29,860 nucleotides of DNA from a virus. Numbering within the stretch: the stretch's first letter is position 1; every line of letters starts with the position of its first letter. The position numbers and the translations under genes are program-made. The notes beneath the pieces are model-generated. The model saw only the letters and a list, made by a program, of their open reading frames with translations. It ran no database searches and had not been told where the DNA came from. Shown here one piece after another: positions 1,915 through 12,342 of this stretch. The stretch spans positions 1 to 29,860 of the IMG/VR virus record IMGVR_UViG_3300026455_000038; one strand, written 5' to 3'.

Positions 1915-3612
1915 TTACTCTGCTTCCATTGCACCCTTAGCAGCCTGCGCCCCTAGAAGGCCCTGAAGCTCAGGCCTCATTGGTGCACCATACCACTGAC
2001 GGGCCACGGCATACGGGATGCCCAAGGATAGCAGTGGATCAATCGTAGCAACTCCTAGACCCTGTGCAGCACTGCCAGCAGCCACAGCAGGTGCGCCACG
2101 TTTCCCGCCAGTCAGGATGTCTTGGGCAAAGCTGCGCTGTGTAGTGCCGCTGTTAGGCACTGGATCAGGCAGAATTGCTGCACCTGCTCTCACAAAATCA
2201 GTGAACGGATTTCCACCTTCAGCCCACATTTGCGGGTTGCGACCGCGTTCAACTGCGGCAATCTGTTGAGGCGGGATAAACCCTGTATTGAGTTTATCCT
2301 GTCCAGCACGCGCCATAGTGTCTTCAATGCGTGAGAAAATCGCATAACGACGATTTACATCTTGCCACGCATTACGAAGTTCAGGGCTGCCAGCAGACCG
2401 CTCCATCGCATCTCCAAGTGCACGCTGCATACCTTGCAGTGCTTCACGCCAGAATTGTGCATTCGGACTATCACTGCGTTGCGCCCTAGCGATTTCTTCA
2501 GAAATCTTCGACTGCATCCGTTGATAGTCGATGCCTTCACCAGCTTTGCCACCTGCATACTCAAGAACGGTATCACGCATTCTTTGCCATGCAGGTGCTA
2601 CATCTTGGAATCCGCGAACATAACGGTTTTCAATGTTGAGCAGATCATCAAACAACTGCTGCTGTTGTGTACCGCCAATTTGTGTAGCCTGTTCAAGCTG
2701 CGTGTATTCATTTCTGAAGTTTTTGCGTGCCTGAGACAACACTTCAGGAGTAGCGACATCGCTATCAATGCCTGCATTTCGCATGATGTTTCGTGTAAAC
2801 GCACGCATCTGCTCATCCTCAACACGCGCAACACGCGGTGCTGATGTTGGCAGATACTTCATTACACTTTCAAAAACCTGAGCAGACGGATTACCTGAAA
2901 CTTGAGCAGGTGTAAGTGGAACACCTGATTGCTCCAGCAAACTGACATTCCCCTGCCTAACTTCACCGCCTGTAGCCGGAAACAATCCACCGGGACGCAC
3001 AGCTGGAAGTGCACCAGCAACAACACCAAGCGGAATAGCAAGACCAGCAGGAACGCCTGCCTCAAGTGCACCCTGAGTTGTTACTGCACCAGTTGTAGCA
3101 CCTACTGTCTGCGTACCGGGTGCAGATGCGAGTGTCTGCATAACAGGTCGTGCAACCTGAGATGTCATTGGCAATGCCTGCGCAACATTGCGTGCTGCCG
3201 CTGCTCCTATTGGAGCTTCAACGGCAGCGCGTGCAGCAGCAGACATAAGGCGTTCTGTTGCACTTGCTGGTTCAGGTAGACCTGCTCTTGTCATCAATTC
3301 TTCCATAGCCTGAGACGGCACTGGTTGGTTTTGACGAGTCAAAGCATTCCATGCAGTCACAGCAACATCAGACAATGGTTGAGCAAGTGCAGCCGATGTT
3401 GCGCCAGCAAGTGCACCGGGAATAGCACCAATACCAGCAAACGGTGCGCCAGCAGCAGCACCTAGTGCAGCGCCTGCGGCAACAGGACCAAGTGCACGAG
3501 TTGCTAGTCCAGCACCACGTTGAATGTTTTCAAATGCACCACGATCAACCCGTTGCTGTAGTTTTTCGCGTTCTTTGGCAATCAGGTCATTTAGGTTCAC
3601 ACGATCTGCCAT
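1915..3612 (-). CDS. DNA-ejection / internal virion protein, 565 aa
   Basis: This large Ala/Gly-rich protein is the last gene of the late operon. After a short basic N-terminus, residues about 33-90 form Gly/Ala-zipper membrane-compatible helices (GPVAAGAALGAAAGAPFAGI). Similar segments recur near 180-205. The central 260-440 region is mostly polar helix (QARKNFRNEYTQLEQATQI, MQSKISEEIARAQRSD). This mix of insertable amphipathic helices and long coiled regions, together with its position at the end of a podovirus morphogenesis module, fits proteins that leave the virion and build the trans-envelope DNA channel (P22 gp7/gp16/gp20 or T7 gp14-16 analogues). There is no enzymatic motif. A good SD (GGGGG) precedes ATG 3612, which overlaps the previous stop by 1 nt. 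Confidence 0.7.
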   Translation of the reverse strand: MADRVNLNDLIAKEREKLQQRVDRGAFENIQRGAGLATRALGPVAAGAALGAAAGAPFAGIGAIPGALAGATSAALAQPLSDVAVTAWNALTRQNQPVPSQAMEELMTRAGLPEPASATERLMSAAARAAVEAPIGAAAARNVAQALPMTSQVARPVMQTLASAPGTQTVGATTGAVTTQGALEAGVPAGLAIPLGVVAGALPAVRPGGLFPATGGEVRQGNVSLLEQSGVPLTPAQVSGNPSAQVFESVMKYLPTSAPRVARVEDEQMRAFTRNIMRNAGIDSDVATPEVLSQARKNFRNEYTQLEQATQIGGTQQQQLFDDLLNIENRYVRGFQDVAPAWQRMRDTVLEYAGGKAGEGIDYQRMQSKISEEIARAQRSDSPNAQFWREALQGMQRALGDAMERSAGSPELRNAWQDVNRRYAIFSRIEDTMARAGQDKLNTGFIPPQQIAAVERGRNPQMWAEGGNPFTDFVRAGAAILPDPVPNSGTTQRSFAQDILTGGKRGAPAVAAGSAAQGLGVATIDPLLSLGIPYAVARQWYGAPMRPELQGLLGAQAAKGAMEAE

Positions 3613-5504
3613 TAACGCCCCCTGTTCAAGCGGTTCAGACGTACAGCATAAGCTGCCTTTTCCTGTTCAGTCATGTCATCTGTATTCATTGTCAGCAATT
3701 CTTGCGGAGTTGCTGAGTTAATACGGTCAATCATACCGGGTTCATAAGGCTTAAACTCAAGACCTTGACGCTTTGCACCCGGTCCAGCAGCCGTAATCAT
3801 GCCCTGTGTAGCAGCTTCTCGATTTTTGCGTTTCTGCTCAATAACAGCGTTTGTGTCACCTTGTTGTGGGAAATAGTTTTCTATTTCCTTTGCCATTTCA
3901 TCAACGCCAATAACTGCGCCAGATTCTTTACGAAGATTTGCTCTAACCCAATTTTCCTGTGCTTGACGATAACGCTGTCTATCTTCATCACGCATGATGT
4001 TTGTTGCTATAGGTCCAATTTTAGGACCAACAAGAGTTTCAACAAGACCCGGCTTTGCAGCAGCACTAAAATCAAGAGGATCAGTGATCTTTGATGCTTG
4101 AATCATTCGTGCAGCAAATCCTGTCGCTCTTGCCTGATCTTCAGTAAGAGGCTTTTCTTCAGGTGGACGTTGCGCAATCAGCGGTGCAGTTGTGCCGGGA
4201 GCAGGAGCCTGCGCCACAGGAAGACCAGCGGCCTGTCCTGTTTGCTGAACTTCTGTTCCTGCTGTTGCAGGTTGCTGGATCAACCCTTTCGGCGGGATGA
4301 CACCCTGTGGAATTGGTGGAGATGTCCAAGCATATTCCATCTGCTGTGTTGCAGGGTTGAATGTAGTGACCATCTTCGGCCCATACATTCTATTGAATGC
4401 AACAGAGTATTCAGGTGTTTCTGCAATTTTTGGGTCTTTAGTTGCAGAAAGGATCAGGTTTTGAGCCCGACCTTCAAGGCCACCTGCTTCTTCAACTTTG
4501 CGATTGTCTGTAGCAAGTTTTGCAAGTTCTTCAGAAAACTTAGCTGCATCTCCTCCAGTTGCTTTCAACCGGGCAAAAACTTCATTTCTTGGGATGTTTG
4601 GAAACTGCGAGAAGATAGAAGCACCAGCTTCCGCTGTTGTACGCGGAAGTGATGGAGGATTAAACAGAGATGCAGGCGCAGCCGGAGGTGTAACAGGCGC
4701 AGCAGACGGCTGTTCTGATGTCGGTGCAGCAGCATGTGCTGACGGTTGCACAACACCACCGGGCGTCACGGCAGGAGCAGCAGCAGGTGCAGCAGGTGTT
4801 ACAAGTGCAGGAGTTGGTGCAGCAGCAGCAGGTGCAGGTGCAGCGCCGTAAATGCGGCGTAGTGTGTTGATTTGTGCATCAATCTGCGATGTGTCACCAT
4901 TGATTGATGCAATGTTAGCCTTCTGTGCTTCAAGAGCAGTAATAGCCTTCTCGCGGTTAGCAAGAATGTCGGCATACTGTGCTTCTTGAATCTGACGAGC
5001 CAGCGGATTCACATACTGCGATGTTGCACGCTGCTGCACGATGTTCTGCACCTGTGCGGCAGATACACCCGGTGGCAAGTCAAACCCGTAAGCCTGCTTG
5101 AATGCAGCAGGGTCTTTCATCAGCGCATTGATCTGACCAAGTGATTGCTGGTTCTGCATCCGTTCAGCAAGCTGTGATTGAAGCATACGTGTTTGCAGAT
5201 TACCCATTGCTTCACGCTGCACATTGCCGGGAATAGCACCCAACTGAGACAGATACTGTGCACGCTGTGCAGGCATCTGCTTTTGACCAGCTGCAAGCAG
5301 CGTTGAACCAAGCTGACCAAGCAGACTGTATGTCATGCGGCGCTGGTCTTCAGGCGACATCATGGAAAGCAAGTCAGTTGCCTGCTGCTGCGGCTGCAAA
5401 CCAGCAGTTTGCTGTGTCGCATCAGTCTGTGCCTGACCACCGCCACCCAGCAACCCACCAAAGAAGTTGCCGATGCCACCAGTGATGTCTTCAAGAAGTG
5501 CCAT
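3612..5504 (-). CDS. DNA-ejection / internal virion protein, 630 aa
   Basis: A long virion-type protein with three zones. Residues 1-210 are Gln-rich helix (GIGNFFGGLLGGGG, then MSPEDQRRMTYSLLGQLGST and KANIASINGDTSQIDAQINT). Residues about 215-285 are a Pro/Ala-rich linker. The C-terminal domain from about 450 on has KPLTEDQARATGFAARMIQA and ENWVRANLRKESGAVIGVDE, a pattern I associate with internal virion proteins of podovirus-like environmental phages. No catalytic residues were seen. It lies between two other ejection-type genes and overlaps the next start by one base (TAATG). The role is assigned by position, composition and the C-terminal pattern. Confidence 0.68.
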   Translation of the reverse strand: MALLEDITGGIGNFFGGLLGGGGQAQTDATQQTAGLQPQQQATDLLSMMSPEDQRRMTYSLLGQLGSTLLAAGQKQMPAQRAQYLSQLGAIPGNVQREAMGNLQTRMLQSQLAERMQNQQSLGQINALMKDPAAFKQAYGFDLPPGVSAAQVQNIVQQRATSQYVNPLARQIQEAQYADILANREKAITALEAQKANIASINGDTSQIDAQINTLRRIYGAAPAPAAAAPTPALVTPAAPAAAPAVTPGGVVQPSAHAAAPTSEQPSAAPVTPPAAPASLFNPPSLPRTTAEAGASIFSQFPNIPRNEVFARLKATGGDAAKFSEELAKLATDNRKVEEAGGLEGRAQNLILSATKDPKIAETPEYSVAFNRMYGPKMVTTFNPATQQMEYAWTSPPIPQGVIPPKGLIQQPATAGTEVQQTGQAAGLPVAQAPAPGTTAPLIAQRPPEEKPLTEDQARATGFAARMIQASKITDPLDFSAAAKPGLVETLVGPKIGPIATNIMRDEDRQRYRQAQENWVRANLRKESGAVIGVDEMAKEIENYFPQQGDTNAVIEQKRKNREAATQGMITAAGPGAKRQGLEFKPYEPGMIDRINSATPQELLTMNTDDMTEQEKAAYAVRLNRLNRGR

Positions 5505-5515
5505 GTTCTTTGTCC

Positions 5516-5878
5516 TTATCGGCCCAAAAGACCGCCAAAGTTGATAGGTGTTTGAGTGATGGTTCCAGTTGTGTCACCAAACTTCAAACGACCATACTGT
5601 GTAGGGAGCTGATTTGTTGTTACCTGCATTTCAGCAGGGTTGAACGGTGGTGCTTGTGTTCCAAGCATTGCCTGATTCATCAAAGCAGTCTGAAACGCAG
5701 ACTGGATGGCAGGATGAATCTGCATGATAGGAGCAGCCAGTGTTGGCTGAACAGGTGGTGTTGGCACAACAGGGATCATTGGCTGTTCTGGCATGATCCC
5801 ATAATTTGCGGAATCAACGCGTCCACCTGTCAAAGATTGCAGGTAAAGTGCACCAAGCTGTTCTTCAAGACTTGCCAT
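5516..5878 (-). CDS. Small Pro/Gln-rich virion-associated protein
   Basis: ATG 5878 with GGGGTGAT upstream gives 120 aa beginning MASLEEQLGALYLQSLTGGR. The middle is rich in Pro, Met and Gln (PMIPVVPTPPVQPTLAAP) and the C-terminus ends in GLLGR. The frame is open another 32 codons upstream, but those codons overlap the end of the preceding gene and have no SD. No enzymatic domain is visible. Its place between two ejection proteins and its low-complexity composition suggest a minor internal or ejection component or a chaperone for one. Confidence 0.6.
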   Translation of the reverse strand: MASLEEQLGALYLQSLTGGRVDSANYGIMPEQPMIPVVPTPPVQPTLAAPIMQIHPAIQSAFQTALMNQAMLGTQAPPFNPAEMQVTTNQLPTQYGRLKFGDTTGTITQTPINFGGLLGR

Positions 5879-5882
5879 GTCA

Positions 5883-7346
5883 TCACCCCAAAAGACCTGA
5901 GAAGATAATATCACGCCATTGACCGCGTTGCACGGGTGCGGGTGCGCCCGGTTGCCATGACGGCTTTTCTGCACCTGCTGCCATCAAACCAAGTCCAACA
6001 TTGGCAAGTCCAGCAAGGCTGCCTGCTGTCGATAGAGCAGATGGTGTAGGGTTGAACAATGATTGTGTTGTCGGCTGCATTGCAGCAGCAGGTGGCATTT
6101 GCAACCCAGCACCCACATTAAGACCAGCCATTTGCGGCATTGTTGGCTGACCAACGGAGGCAGGAAGTGTCACACTTTCAGCCATACCCGGTGTCAAAGA
6201 TGGAAACTGTGTTGGCTGTGGAGCGGCAACAGGAGCCATTGAGGCAACTTGTGTTGGCTGGACAGCATTGGCAGCAGGAGTTGACCAAGGTGTACCAAGC
6301 AGACCGCCTGTCATGCCACCAAGGACATCCTGCCCAAATCGTGACCATGTACCAGCCGGAGCAAGTTGAGCAGTTGATGCAGGAGCAAGATAGCCTTTTA
6401 CATCTGCCATCTGGGTTGCAGGTGCTTGTGGCTGCTGTGGCTGTTGTTGTTGCGGCATCTGGGGCTGCGGAAGACCCATGATATTTTGAGCAATGGTTGA
6501 AGAACCAATGCCAGTTTGTGCCAGCAACTGACCTTGAGGTGTAAAAATCTGCGTGCCATCAGCAGCAGGCTTATATCCAAGACCCATACCGATACGAACA
6601 GCATTGCTATCTCCAATAGGAATAGCACCGGGATACTGTTGAATAAGTTGTCGCACTGACTGTTGTGTCAAATGCAATGGGTCTTTTGCTTCGTATGTAC
6701 CAGTTGCGATAGTTGCACCTGCATCTGTTGCAGCAGTTCTAACTGCTTCACTTACAGGTCTAAACTTATCATTATTCGCATTAGGTGGGACAATTATAGG
6801 ATTTAGGCCTCTTGATTTAGCTGCTTCAATAGCCTTCATAGTTGCTTCAGCAGCAGCTTGAGGATTGGCATAATCGTTTGTTCCAAGAGCAATCAAAGCA
6901 TTCTTTGGCTGCTGTTGTGCTGTTTCAGTTTGACCGCCTAACAGGCCAATAGAATTGGCAAAGTTTGCACCTTTTTTGGTTATTGCTTCAACGCCCCCTT
7001 GGTCACGCACAGCATACCAAGGGCTTGTTCCTTTATTTTTCATCATCTCAAGCGAAAAATCGACCTGCTGCATCCAGTTTTCACGGGATGGAGCCTGTCC
7101 ATATTTTTGCTGAAACTCATAGGCCATTCCACCGGGTGCAATTTTATTCGGATCAGACGAACCAGAATAAAGTTGGAACGGACCAAACGAATAACCGCGT
7201 GCATCACGGTTCCCGAATGTGGGGCTTCCAAGTGTATTTGGATTTAGACCTTCATAACGAGCAATGCCGACAGCAAGATTTGGATCAATGCCGTAGAGTG
7301 GCGCTCTTCTGTAGATGTATTCCGCAATAGTGTTTACATCAGCCAT
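5883..7346 (-). CDS. Virion protein: lytic-transglycosylase-like domain plus permuted SGNH-like domain
   Basis: This 487-aa protein is modular. Residues 1-135 look lysozyme-like: Glu32 (GIARYEGLNPN) is the likely catalytic acid, followed by GNRDARGYSFGPFQLYSG, as in phage transglycosylases. After a QQQ linker, residues 148-290 hold SGNH-hydrolase blocks in an unusual order: GTND (155-158, block III), DPLH (222-225, block V), GDS (245-247, nucleophile block I), then a Gly block at TGIGSS (278-283, block II). From about 292 it is Pro/Gln/Ala-rich linker with a hydrophobic tail (ALSTAGSLAGLANVGLGLMA). It probably travels in the virion, opens peptidoglycan during DNA ejection and may de-esterify glycans; the esterase part is inference. 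It overlaps the PP-loop gene by 8 nt. Confidence 0.75.
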   Translation of the reverse strand: MADVNTIAEYIYRRAPLYGIDPNLAVGIARYEGLNPNTLGSPTFGNRDARGYSFGPFQLYSGSSDPNKIAPGGMAYEFQQKYGQAPSRENWMQQVDFSLEMMKNKGTSPWYAVRDQGGVEAITKKGANFANSIGLLGGQTETAQQQPKNALIALGTNDYANPQAAAEATMKAIEAAKSRGLNPIIVPPNANNDKFRPVSEAVRTAATDAGATIATGTYEAKDPLHLTQQSVRQLIQQYPGAIPIGDSNAVRIGMGLGYKPAADGTQIFTPQGQLLAQTGIGSSTIAQNIMGLPQPQMPQQQQPQQPQAPATQMADVKGYLAPASTAQLAPAGTWSRFGQDVLGGMTGGLLGTPWSTPAANAVQPTQVASMAPVAAPQPTQFPSLTPGMAESVTLPASVGQPTMPQMAGLNVGAGLQMPPAAAMQPTTQSLFNPTPSALSTAGSLAGLANVGLGLMAAGAEKPSWQPGAPAPVQRGQWRDIIFSGLLG

Positions 7347-8028
7347 AGCTCACCCACTGCTTTCCAACTGCCTCGTCGATGATGTTTAACCTACGCAGCA
7401 CCTCTGCTTTTTTGAACGGAGACAGATTCTTAATCCGCTGTTCATTGTCAGAAAGATATGCAGTGCAGTCCCAGCAGTCTCTTCCTGTTTTTTCACCTTC
7501 TTTGTATCCCGGTGGCAGCACAGCGCCGACTTCATCAAGATACTTGAAAACCTGTTCTTCGGTCCAATCTTGGATTGGCATTATAAACTCAATGCCATCC
7601 ACCTTTGTACCATTTCGCGCAGTTGACTTTTTTGCGTCAGAATTACGCTGACCTTTGATCACCTTTGTAACACCTAAATCCTTCACCCCATAGTGCAAAG
7701 GTATCCAGATGTTAGTTGAGCAGCACGACACATAAGGCTGCATCAATGGTCCAGTTTCTCCGCTGATATGTCTGCCAACCATTGTGTTATTGACTGGCAA
7801 CACATCAACAGGCCAACCGAAATTCTGTATGTTCTCAGGCTGATTAGAATTAAGTTCCACAAAGTGTGGCAACTTTTTCTTCCATTCAGCCATATACGCG
7901 ACCATTTCAGGATACGCTGCACCAGTGTTTAGCCATACAACATACATCTGATCCCATTTGTCTTTGTTCAAATACAAACAAGCCAGACTGTCTTTGCCAC
8001 CACTAAACAGTAACGCAGTGTCGATCAT
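7339..8028 (-). CDS. PP-loop ATPase of the PAPS/APS-reductase superfamily
   Basis: This is a 229-aa protein. The N-terminus carries the PP-loop SGGKDS (residues 9-14), which binds ATP or adenylyl-sulfate. Further family marks are LNTG (33-36) and KGQRNSDAKKS (125-135). Four cysteines lie as CC (102-103) and CxxC (185-188), the spacing of the [4Fe-4S] ligands in APS reductases and in DndC-type proteins. The C-terminus after 190 has no cysteine, so the catalytic Cys of true PAPS/APS reductases is absent. A thiolation, DNA/RNA-modification or other adenylation role is therefore as likely as sulfate reduction. Start and stop overlap the ejection-type genes on both sides (ATGA; 8 nt), an odd place for metabolism. 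Confidence 0.82.
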   Translation of the reverse strand: MIDTALLFSGGKDSLACLYLNKDKWDQMYVVWLNTGAAYPEMVAYMAEWKKKLPHFVELNSNQPENIQNFGWPVDVLPVNNTMVGRHISGETGPLMQPYVSCCSTNIWIPLHYGVKDLGVTKVIKGQRNSDAKKSTARNGTKVDGIEFIMPIQDWTEEQVFKYLDEVGAVLPPGYKEGEKTGRDCWDCTAYLSDNEQRIKNLSPFKKAEVLRRLNIIDEAVGKQWVSYG

Positions 8029-8963
8029 AGTGATGCAATCGTACCAATGAGAGACGCGGCAGACGCGGCTGCACCCAAACCAGTCAGCAATGGATTGCTG
8101 GAAGGACCGGGACCAGTCTGCGTATTTGTCTGTCCATACGGTGTAGCACCGAGTGCTTGGACAGGAATCTGCAACTGCTGCAATGGGAATTGCTGGGCTT
8201 CACGATAAGCCTGCTGCATTGCATCAAGTTCAGCCTGCTGCTGCTGTTGCAAAGCAGACTGGGCAGCAAGAGCAGATGATGCACCAGTGAGATAAGCCTG
8301 TTGACCTGCACCAGCAAGACCGCCGAGTGCCTGTGCACCTTGAAGACCAATGCCAGCCTGCTGCAATCCAGCAGCCTGATTAAGCTGCTGTGCAGCCATC
8401 TGACGGGCAATATCAGATTGTGCTGCCTGCTGCGCCTGCTGGAAGTTCTGCGAATACAACTGTGCAGCAAGGTTTGCAGCCTGCTGCTGGGCAGCCGCGT
8501 TTACAACACCTTCCTGAATGCTTTGGCGTGATCCACCAAATGCACGGGCACGAATAGCTGCATCAGACGCAGCATTCAGGTTTTGCATCCGCTGTTGGTT
8601 CAATGTGTCCAGAGATGATTGCAGGACAGACTGAGTAAATGGGTTCATATATGGAGCAAGATCAGTCGTTGAAAGCTGACCTGCCTGCACTTGCTGCGGC
8701 TGGTACTGACCAGACTGTGCAGCCATTTGTTGCGCATAAGCATAAGCAGGCTGTGCCATGCCATAGCTAGATGCAATGTCCCCGATGGTCTGAAGTTGAC
8801 CGCTGCTAATATCTGCAACACGCTGACCTGTATATGGTCCCATCATGTTTTCAGATACCTGATAGGCAGCAGCAAGGTTCTTCTTACCTGCTTCCTGCAC
8901 CCATTCAGGCAGTTCTGTCTTATTCACGACCTGTTGTTGACCACCGCCGCCACCTTTGCCCAT
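8025..8963 (-). CDS. Gln/Ala-rich internal virion (ejection) protein, 312 aa
   Basis: ATG 8963 has an ideal SD (GGAGG, 6 nt spacer). The protein starts MGKGGGGGQQQVVNKTELPE and then becomes Ala/Gln-rich helix. It carries the segment LAPYMNPFTQSVLQSSLDTL followed by AIRARAFGGSRQSIQEGVV, a pattern seen in a conserved family of environmental podovirus/siphovirus structural proteins. A hydrophobic Ala-rich tail (GLGAAASAASLIGTIASL) ends the chain. Such composition suits a protein stored in the capsid or tail and ejected with DNA. The 3' end overlaps the PP-loop gene start by 4 nt. Several short tandem Gln codons give local repetitiveness. Confidence 0.7.
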   Translation of the reverse strand: MGKGGGGGQQQVVNKTELPEWVQEAGKKNLAAAYQVSENMMGPYTGQRVADISSGQLQTIGDIASSYGMAQPAYAYAQQMAAQSGQYQPQQVQAGQLSTTDLAPYMNPFTQSVLQSSLDTLNQQRMQNLNAASDAAIRARAFGGSRQSIQEGVVNAAAQQQAANLAAQLYSQNFQQAQQAAQSDIARQMAAQQLNQAAGLQQAGIGLQGAQALGGLAGAGQQAYLTGASSALAAQSALQQQQQAELDAMQQAYREAQQFPLQQLQIPVQALGATPYGQTNTQTGPGPSSNPLLTGLGAAASAASLIGTIASL

Positions 8964-8964
8964 T

Positions 8965-9297
8965 TTAATCCTCCAATGGTAGTGCCATAGACACCGACCT
9001 GTTGGTCCATCCATATTTCGGCAGAATCTTCTGCCATCCCCAGCGTCCGTTCATGGTCATAAAAGAGCAACCATGCTCTTTAGCAAATGCGATGACCTGC
9101 GGGTGCATACTCATCGCCTCTTCCATGTCACCGAACACCAAAAAACAGTTCAGCCATTTCTTCTGTGGTCCAACTAATATCTCTGTAATCACACCAGAGT
9201 TATCCGTGAACCATCCCTGATACTTACCAGACTGCAAACCAAGATAGATGTCACCGACTGAATGCGTACCGCCACCCAATCTAAGTGCTTTCTCCAT
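8965..9297 (-). CDS. GNAT-fold-like phage protein
   Basis: Using ATG 9297 (directly after the previous TAA) gives 110 aa. The pattern WFTDNSGVITEILVGPQKKW, then CFLVFGDMEEAM, then AFAKEHGCSFMTMNGRWGWQ and a terminal YGW matches small GNAT-like proteins encoded in the tail/ejection region of many podovirus-like phages. Acetyl-CoA-binding residues (Q/RxxGxG/A) are not evident, so it may have a structural role. No clear SD is present, so it likely depends on re-initiation after the upstream stop. A longer in-frame start at 9327 would overlap the upstream gene and is less likely. Confidence 0.6.
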   Translation of the reverse strand: MEKALRLGGGTHSVGDIYLGLQSGKYQGWFTDNSGVITEILVGPQKKWLNCFLVFGDMEEAMSMHPQVIAFAKEHGCSFMTMNGRWGWQKILPKYGWTNRSVSMALPLED

Positions 9298-11311: not shown

Positions 11312-11821
11312 TCAGGCCATGCCCTTTGCCTTCTCTTCGACTTCAGCAACACGACGAGTCCAACCCTTTCCAAAGGTATCAAAGGTGGGCAAGCCTTTTA
11401 AGAAGTCCATCCGCATCCCACAAAGAGCATCAATCACCTCATCAGCAGGTGCTTCGTTAATAGCAGCCAGTGTTTTTGGCCCAATGATGCCATCTGCCGG
11501 AACACCTACGATCTGCTGTAGGTATTTAGCTGCACGGGCTGGTCCAGAGTTAACTGCCAGATCATAGGCTGCATAATCAACTCCAAACGGAAGTTCATCT
11601 CCACGTATTTTGTCCCAGTAACGAGCCTTATAGAACGGCTGAACCATCTCAGGTGTCAGACTGCGCATTTCTGCCTCATCAGCCTGCTGACCTGTGTATT
11701 CTTCCCATGCTCTCTTTGTGACACCGAGATTGGTCATACCACCGGGATCACGCGGATGGTTTACAAATCCACCTTCATGCTTCAAGACCATCCTAAAGCA
11801 GTCTTCCCAGTTGCTCTTCAT
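11312..11821 (-). CDS. GH108 N-acetylmuramidase endolysin
   Basis: ATG 11821 (GGGAG upstream, overlapping the holin TGA as ATGA) gives 169 aa starting MKSNWEDCFRMVLKHEGGFV. The GH108 signature is intact: HEGG (catalytic Glu16), then DPGGMTNLGVTKRAW and a CxGD-like turn. The second half, from about residue 85, is the PG_binding_3 type domain (DLAVNSGPARAAKYLQQIVG, then DGIIGPKTLAAIN). The enzyme cleaves the MurNAc-GlcNAc glycan bond of peptidoglycan at lysis. It has no signal peptide, so release depends on the neighbouring holin. Length is normal for the family, which is common in alphaproteobacterial phages. A longer in-frame start (11905) overlaps the holin gene and is unlikely. Confidence 0.92.
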   Translation of the reverse strand: MKSNWEDCFRMVLKHEGGFVNHPRDPGGMTNLGVTKRAWEEYTGQQADEAEMRSLTPEMVQPFYKARYWDKIRGDELPFGVDYAAYDLAVNSGPARAAKYLQQIVGVPADGIIGPKTLAAINEAPADEVIDALCGMRMDFLKGLPTFDTFGKGWTRRVAEVEEKAKGMA

Positions 11822-12342
11822 TTTCCATCTCCCTTGCCGATCAAGGCATTCTTTTCCTTCGATCCAGCCGATGAACCATAGTAGAAGTTGATTACCCCAG
11901 TCCATGCCGTACCAAGTGCACCAAGCATCATAAGCAGTGCTTCAGTGCCATTCTGCGGCATACCATGAAGAAGCATCCAAGTCAGGATGCCGAAGAATCC
12001 AACGGTGATCAGGAGTGCAAGCATACGTGGAACCCAGTCTTGGGTTGATACCTGCATCTTACGGGCGCTGTCACGATCAGCAGCAGCAATGCGCTCAAGA
12101 TCAATGTCCAGTTCCTTCATGCGAACCTTGAAATCAGCGTCAATCTGCTTCACAGCTGCAAGCTGTTCTGGCGTTGCCTTTTCCAAGGCAGCCTTTACAT
12201 CGTCTTCATTGCCTTCTTCATGCCCAAGGAGAGCCGAAGACAATGTTTTGACAGCAACACCTGCCAATGGTCCACCCAAGGCTGTTGCCAGCGTAGGAGC
12301 AACTGTCTGGAGCAATGGTCCAAATGTTTTCAATAGGTCCAT
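11818..12342 (-). CDS. Holin, three-TM GTA type
   Basis: This is a 174-aa protein matching the 'holin of 3 TMs' family used by gene transfer agents and alphaproteobacterial phages. It has an Ala/Gly/Leu-rich amphipathic N-terminus (FGPLLQTVAPTLATALGGPL), a central charged helix (AALEKATPEQLAAVKQIDAD, KELDIDLERIAAADRDSA), the WVPRMLALLITVGFFGILTW membrane segment and a last membrane segment around LLMMLGALGTAWTGVINFYY before the GSSAGSKEKN tail. It permeabilises the inner membrane to time lysis and give the adjacent GH108 enzyme access to peptidoglycan. SD GGGGG precedes ATG 12342. The order holin then endolysin with a 4-nt overlap supports one lysis cassette. Confidence 0.88.
   Translation of the reverse strand: MDLLKTFGPLLQTVAPTLATALGGPLAGVAVKTLSSALLGHEEGNEDDVKAALEKATPEQLAAVKQIDADFKVRMKELDIDLERIAAADRDSARKMQVSTQDWVPRMLALLITVGFFGILTWMLLHGMPQNGTEALLMMLGALGTAWTGVINFYYGSSAGSKEKNALIGKGDGK

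Follow-up and report, generated by a model that had tools for sequence, protein, structure and literature searches.

A predicted circularly permuted SGNH hydrolase domain beside a lysozyme-like domain in a phage ejection-region protein

The virus fragment IMGVR_UViG_3300026455_000038 comprises 29,860 bases, and the window analysed here is this whole stretch. It encodes a 487-aa protein within a block of ejection-region genes, consisting of a lysozyme-like domain, a permuted SGNH domain, a Pro/Gln linker and a C-terminal tail (Table 1). Two neighbouring genes (1918-3612 and 8028-9014) match the PHROG 'DNA ejection protein', and other neighbours match virion structural protein, tail fibre and portal entries. 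The portal is closest to the portals of uncultured Caudoviricetes and of Sinorhizobium phage phiM5, with 47-50% identity. The ejection block also encodes a 630-aa protein (3615-5504, minus strand), and a 120-aa ORF (5516-5878, minus strand) lies directly after the 487-aa gene; neither had a match in the PHROG search. A PAPS-reductase-like gene (7342-8028, minus strand; phrog_424, E 3.7e-20) was found between ejection-region genes. Because the 487-aa gene lies within the ejection block and a separate endolysin gene is present at 11315-11905, the 487-aa protein is not the lysis endolysin. Its homologue in phiGT1 is annotated as 'internal virion protein/injection protein', and from this annotation together with the gene position we infer that the 487-aa protein is a virion component.

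Table 1. Features of the 487-aa ejection-region protein and its gene in the window.
Feature	Position	Strand	Basis
487-aa ejection-region protein (lysozyme-like + permuted SGNH + Pro/Gln linker + C-terminal tail)	5883..7346	-	ORF
c-type-lysozyme/lytic-transglycosylase-like domain, residues 1-135	6942..7346	-	AF2 (AlphaFold2), VIA-align, Glu32
Circularly permuted SGNH domain, residues 148-291 (approximate), order III-V-I-II	6474..6905	-	Motifs, homologues, profiles, AF2
Block III GTND, residues 155-158; N157 predicted oxyanion-hole Asn	6873..6884	-	Aligns with OatA Asn491
Block V DPLH, residues 222-225; D222 and H225 predicted triad acid and base	6672..6683	-	Motif conservation
Block I GDS (GDSN), residues 245-247; S247 predicted nucleophile	6606..6614	-	Aligns with OatA Ser438
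Block II TGIGSS, residues 278-283; G279 most likely the block II Gly	6498..6515	-	Homologues, OatA comparison
Pro/Gln-rich linker and conserved C-terminal tail (..RGQWRDIIFSGLLG)	5886..6473	-	Common to homologues with other N-terminal enzymes

The domain contains all four SGNH superfamily blocks, with GDS as block I, Gly as block II, GxND as block III and DxxH as block V. However, the canonical order I-II-III-V was not found; every member examined, including every distant relative, has the order III-V-I-II. The initial annotation had placed the four motifs at these positions and in this order, and they are indeed there: all four occur in the same order in 10 of 10 close IMG/VR homologues (79-100% identical), and the order is kept in all relatives examined. 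GxND, DxxH and GDS occurred together, in any order, in 0 of 20,000 shuffles of the domain, and the conservation of the motifs is stronger evidence than this test. The annotation had also assigned the block II Gly to TGIGSS. The motif is kept, and the Gly is most likely G279 and not G281, because one homologue (L009) carries Asp at 281 and G279 corresponds to Ser461 of the SGNH protein OatA. G279 is conserved across most of the wider family. Conservation of GDS had been proposed as a check; it is kept in close and most distant homologues and lost only where the His is mostly lost too.

Profiles were built from the same 15 member sequences in native order, in the correct rotation (I-II-III-V) and in a wrong rotation. 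The native-order profile matched the SGNH domain of pneumococcal OatA in two order-swapped pieces (21.3 bits, E 0.0019). After the correct rotation, with the cut at the predicted old ends, a single continuous alignment covered blocks I-III of OatA (27.6 bits, E 2.4e-5), and the wrong rotation, with the cut between blocks I and II, gave 22.5 bits (E 7.9e-4). The gain on rotation is modest, about 6 bits, and the OatA alignment ends short of block V. An earlier pair of native and rotated profiles (A3 and A4), whose rows differ, gave E values of 0.0048 and 4.1e-7, respectively. S247 aligned on OatA Ser438 and N157 on Asn491, and a reading of the block II sequences puts G279 at Ser461. In OatA, Ser438 is proven as a catalytic residue and Asn491 as an oxyanion residue, and Ser461 occupies the block II position (PMC5697884). 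At the level of sequence, similarity to proven SGNH members is present.

In Pfam, Lipase_GDSL_2 (PF13472) is the best family for most members, with scores under the curated cut-off; alignments of rotated members begin at profile position 2, and in native order only the block III part aligns. Rotating the single window sequence changed the Pfam score from 14.4 to 15.7 bits, or from 18.0 to 20.2 bits with other ends, which is no clear rise. The OatA-type SGNH family PF19040 had no match in the window record at E <= 0.001 and was matched weakly by some relatives (best E 4.4e-4). The circular permutation claimed in the initial annotation is supported by the family-wide block order, the predicted topology, the swapped OatA match that became one piece on rotation, and the members whose chain begins at block III.

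The AlphaFold2 structure of the permuted domain, predicted with 16 sequences, had a pLDDT of 93.3 and a pTM of 0.89. Its elements run in the order b(III)-H-b-H-[V]-H-b(I)-H-b(II)-H, and this modelled strand order fits a rotated SGNH fold. Foldseek and VIA-align searches of the model against the PDB revealed no SGNH protein among the top matches, which were generic Rossmann folds with Z <= 6.5. Both aligners are sequential and would not see a permutation, so this result, to be expected of a permuted domain, is uninformative, not contrary. The N-terminal domain was predicted with a pLDDT of 84 and a pTM of 0.82. Its full length could be matched to c-type lysozymes, with an alignment of the model to hen lysozyme at Z 9.1 (rmsd 3.4, 118 residues), and among the VIA-align matches listed all were lysozymes or lactalbumins; a Pfam search of this domain gave no match. 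Glu32 (codon 7251-7253) is invariant in 12 homologues. A lysozyme-like domain with Glu32, as proposed earlier, agrees with these results, and the modelled fold places it in the lysozyme superfamily (GH22/GH23-like) as a putative transglycosylase or hydrolase.

The permuted SGNH domain is absent from close homologues L019-L032, which share the lysozyme domain and the tail, and is thus an optional accessory. In L016, L017, L018 and L031 the C-terminal tail is kept and the N-terminal enzyme is exchanged, with an SLT-like domain in L016 and a glucosaminidase in L018. Such exchanges mark the ejection protein as a modular carrier of enzymes.

Distant relatives of the permuted domain were sought by pattern and alignment scans seeded with the permuted family. 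The initial annotation had suggested looking for the same block order in other phage proteins, and the domain recurs in unrelated phage virion proteins that form about 21 clusters at 70% identity. It stands repeatedly beside unrelated peptidoglycan-opening enzymes: lysozyme-like domains, M23 (L123 and its kin), SLT (L124), GH19 (L130), Amidase_5 (L134) and a gp5-type OB domain with Phage_lysozyme2. L055 and other cyanophage 'endolysin' proteins also contain it. No GxND follows GDS in any of the 51 loci of the final scan. Canonical-order relatives were not seen, a weak negative given that permuted sequences served as seeds. A scan of genome contigs found no relative, and BLAST against named phages returned the cyanophage copies alone. 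In L148 and L149, a gp5-type OB domain, the permuted SGNH domain and Phage_lysozyme2 follow one another in a single 478-aa protein, a T4-gp5-like hub with a predicted esterase placed between OB domain and lysozyme. None of the PHROG and NCBIfam models recognised the domain, save for one weak PHROG match to one member. Because these models and sequential fold searches miss the permuted domain, many phages probably have it listed wrongly under 'hypothetical' or 'endolysin'.

We give a probability of roughly two in three to the reading that residues 148-291 form a complete permuted SGNH/GDSL hydrolase that acts as a virion esterase, probably on peptidoglycan O-acetyl groups, with activity, substrate and timing inferred. 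Sequence and models support the domain, its block order, the alignment with the OatA catalytic residues and the lysozyme fold. The chain would start at block III and end after block II. The old C-terminus, a helix after DxxH, would connect through a brief 'YPGA' turn to the old N-terminus, the GDS strand, and the new chain ends would separate the block II helix from the block III strand. In the predicted active site the nucleophile is S247, the base H225 and the acid D222, and the oxyanion hole would be built from N157, G279 and the amide of S247. Located in the virion beside a lysozyme-like domain, the enzyme may strip ester-linked acyl groups, our best guess being O-acetyl on peptidoglycan MurNAc, after which the partner enzyme could open the wall at DNA entry. 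The recurrence beside wall-opening enzymes is consistent with this proposal, and the closest relative with a solved structure, OatA, works on the O-acetyl of peptidoglycan MurNAc (PMC5697884). If the proposal holds, virions may bring esterases against O-acylated walls at entry; wall O-acylation is a host modification that has been studied mostly as lysozyme resistance.

Inhibition by MurNAc O-acetyl is not known for some of the partners (M23, amidase), which counts against this group as the target. SGNH domains of phage tail proteins often target surface polysaccharides, and the enzyme could deacylate LPS, O-antigen, capsule or lipid while the phage adsorbs or crosses the membrane. However, the domain's carriers are ejection-region or tail-tip proteins, in which it neighbours wall-cutting enzymes, and not receptor-binding fibres, and we regard such a substrate as unlikely, with appreciable weight nonetheless.

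It is also conceivable, at a distinctly lower probability, that the permuted SGNH fold exists but serves mainly in glycan binding or in holding the virion protein in place, with catalysis secondary or lost. Several lineages retain the domain despite having lost Ser, His or Asn. Catalytic residues are missing in some relatives (ACG-2014d, S-SSM4, L100-105, L130 and L150), and in two 'endolysin' proteins, L033 (ACG-2014d gp010) and L035 (S-SSM4), the permuted SGNH domain is decayed, with Ser, His and Asn all replaced. These decayed copies suggest, from their sequences, an additional or later non-catalytic role of the domain. On the other hand, the catalytic residues are intact in this phage, in 10 of 10 close homologues and in most distant clusters. 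Among the 21 clusters at 70% identity, those that have lost Ser247 tend also to have lost His225 (Fisher p 0.011) and G279 (p 0.0055), and structural Gly and Pro positions stay unchanged. Clustering at 50% identity leaves the Ser-His link without significance (p 0.18), which makes the co-loss supportive rather than decisive; L130 and L141 have lost Ser and kept His, and L069 and L142 have lost His and kept Ser.

That the nearest solved structure is OatA could imply an acyltransferase rather than a hydrolase. The block II residue Val460 is said to favour transfer in OatA (PMC5697884), but its position is occupied by T278 here and by T, V, R, Q and other residues in the family. An infecting virion also has no evident acetyl donor, and we consider an acyltransferase very unlikely. 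Ejection proteins are oligomeric in known podophages, and two broken SGNH domains, or halves that function only via subunit swapping, might therefore be imagined. However, six members (L130, L141, L150, L151, L142 and L183) have a Met start just before block III, which leaves no room for a lost earlier block I, and the prediction is a single confident monomer fold; two broken domains, already doubted in the initial annotation, are rejected on the block III starts, and this explanation as a whole has hardly any chance. Just as poorly placed is the view that the motifs arose by chance in a generic Rossmann-like domain, for which the fold searches speak by returning Rossmann-type folds only (Z <= 6.5), and against which stand the conserved catalytic motifs, the OatA profile match before and after rotation, Lipase_GDSL_2 as the best Pfam family of members and the shuffle test.

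Turning to known systems, the SGNH domain of OatA from Streptococcus pneumoniae (PDB 5UFY/5UG1), a peptidoglycan O-acetyltransferase, is the best PDB sequence match to the permuted family. OatA differs in that it has the canonical block order, is fused to a membrane acyltransferase, is cellular, and is a transferase rather than a shown esterase. Virion-borne wall cutters with a lysozyme fold are known from T4 gp5-type and P22/T7-like internal virion muramidases, to which the 487-aa protein adds the permuted SGNH domain. The 'endolysin' proteins of cyanophages ACG-2014d, S-SSM4 and S-SSM6b share this domain; however, they have GDQ or GDK for GDS and Lys in place of His. AlgX/AlgJ and BcPatB1 (DHHW) are naturally permuted SGNH proteins of order H-S-G-N that act on polysaccharide O-acetyl groups, and these papers describe no phage members (PMC9487903, PMC4148444). 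Like them, the phage domain is predicted to have a circularly permuted SGNH fold, but their cut point lies between blocks III and V, whereas that of the phage domain (N-H-S-G) lies between II and III. AlgX/AlgJ further have Tyr for Asn in block III, a DxH block V, a GTSYS block I and a cap domain (PMC9487903), in contrast to GTND, DPLH and GDS in the phage domain. In the open-access literature, with subscription papers outside our scope, we found neither the N-H-S-G order nor a phage permuted SGNH domain. We think it quite probable that these proteins represent an undescribed phage class of permuted SGNH domains (N-H-S-G), an interchangeable module of unrelated virion wall-penetration proteins that joins the removal of esters to the cutting of glycans or peptides and is non-catalytic in some lineages. 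If so, naturally permuted SGNH enzymes have a second cut point, and the fold tolerates this cut across many lineages. Permuted SGNH proteins are already known, and the N-H-S-G cut is a different, new permuted variant.
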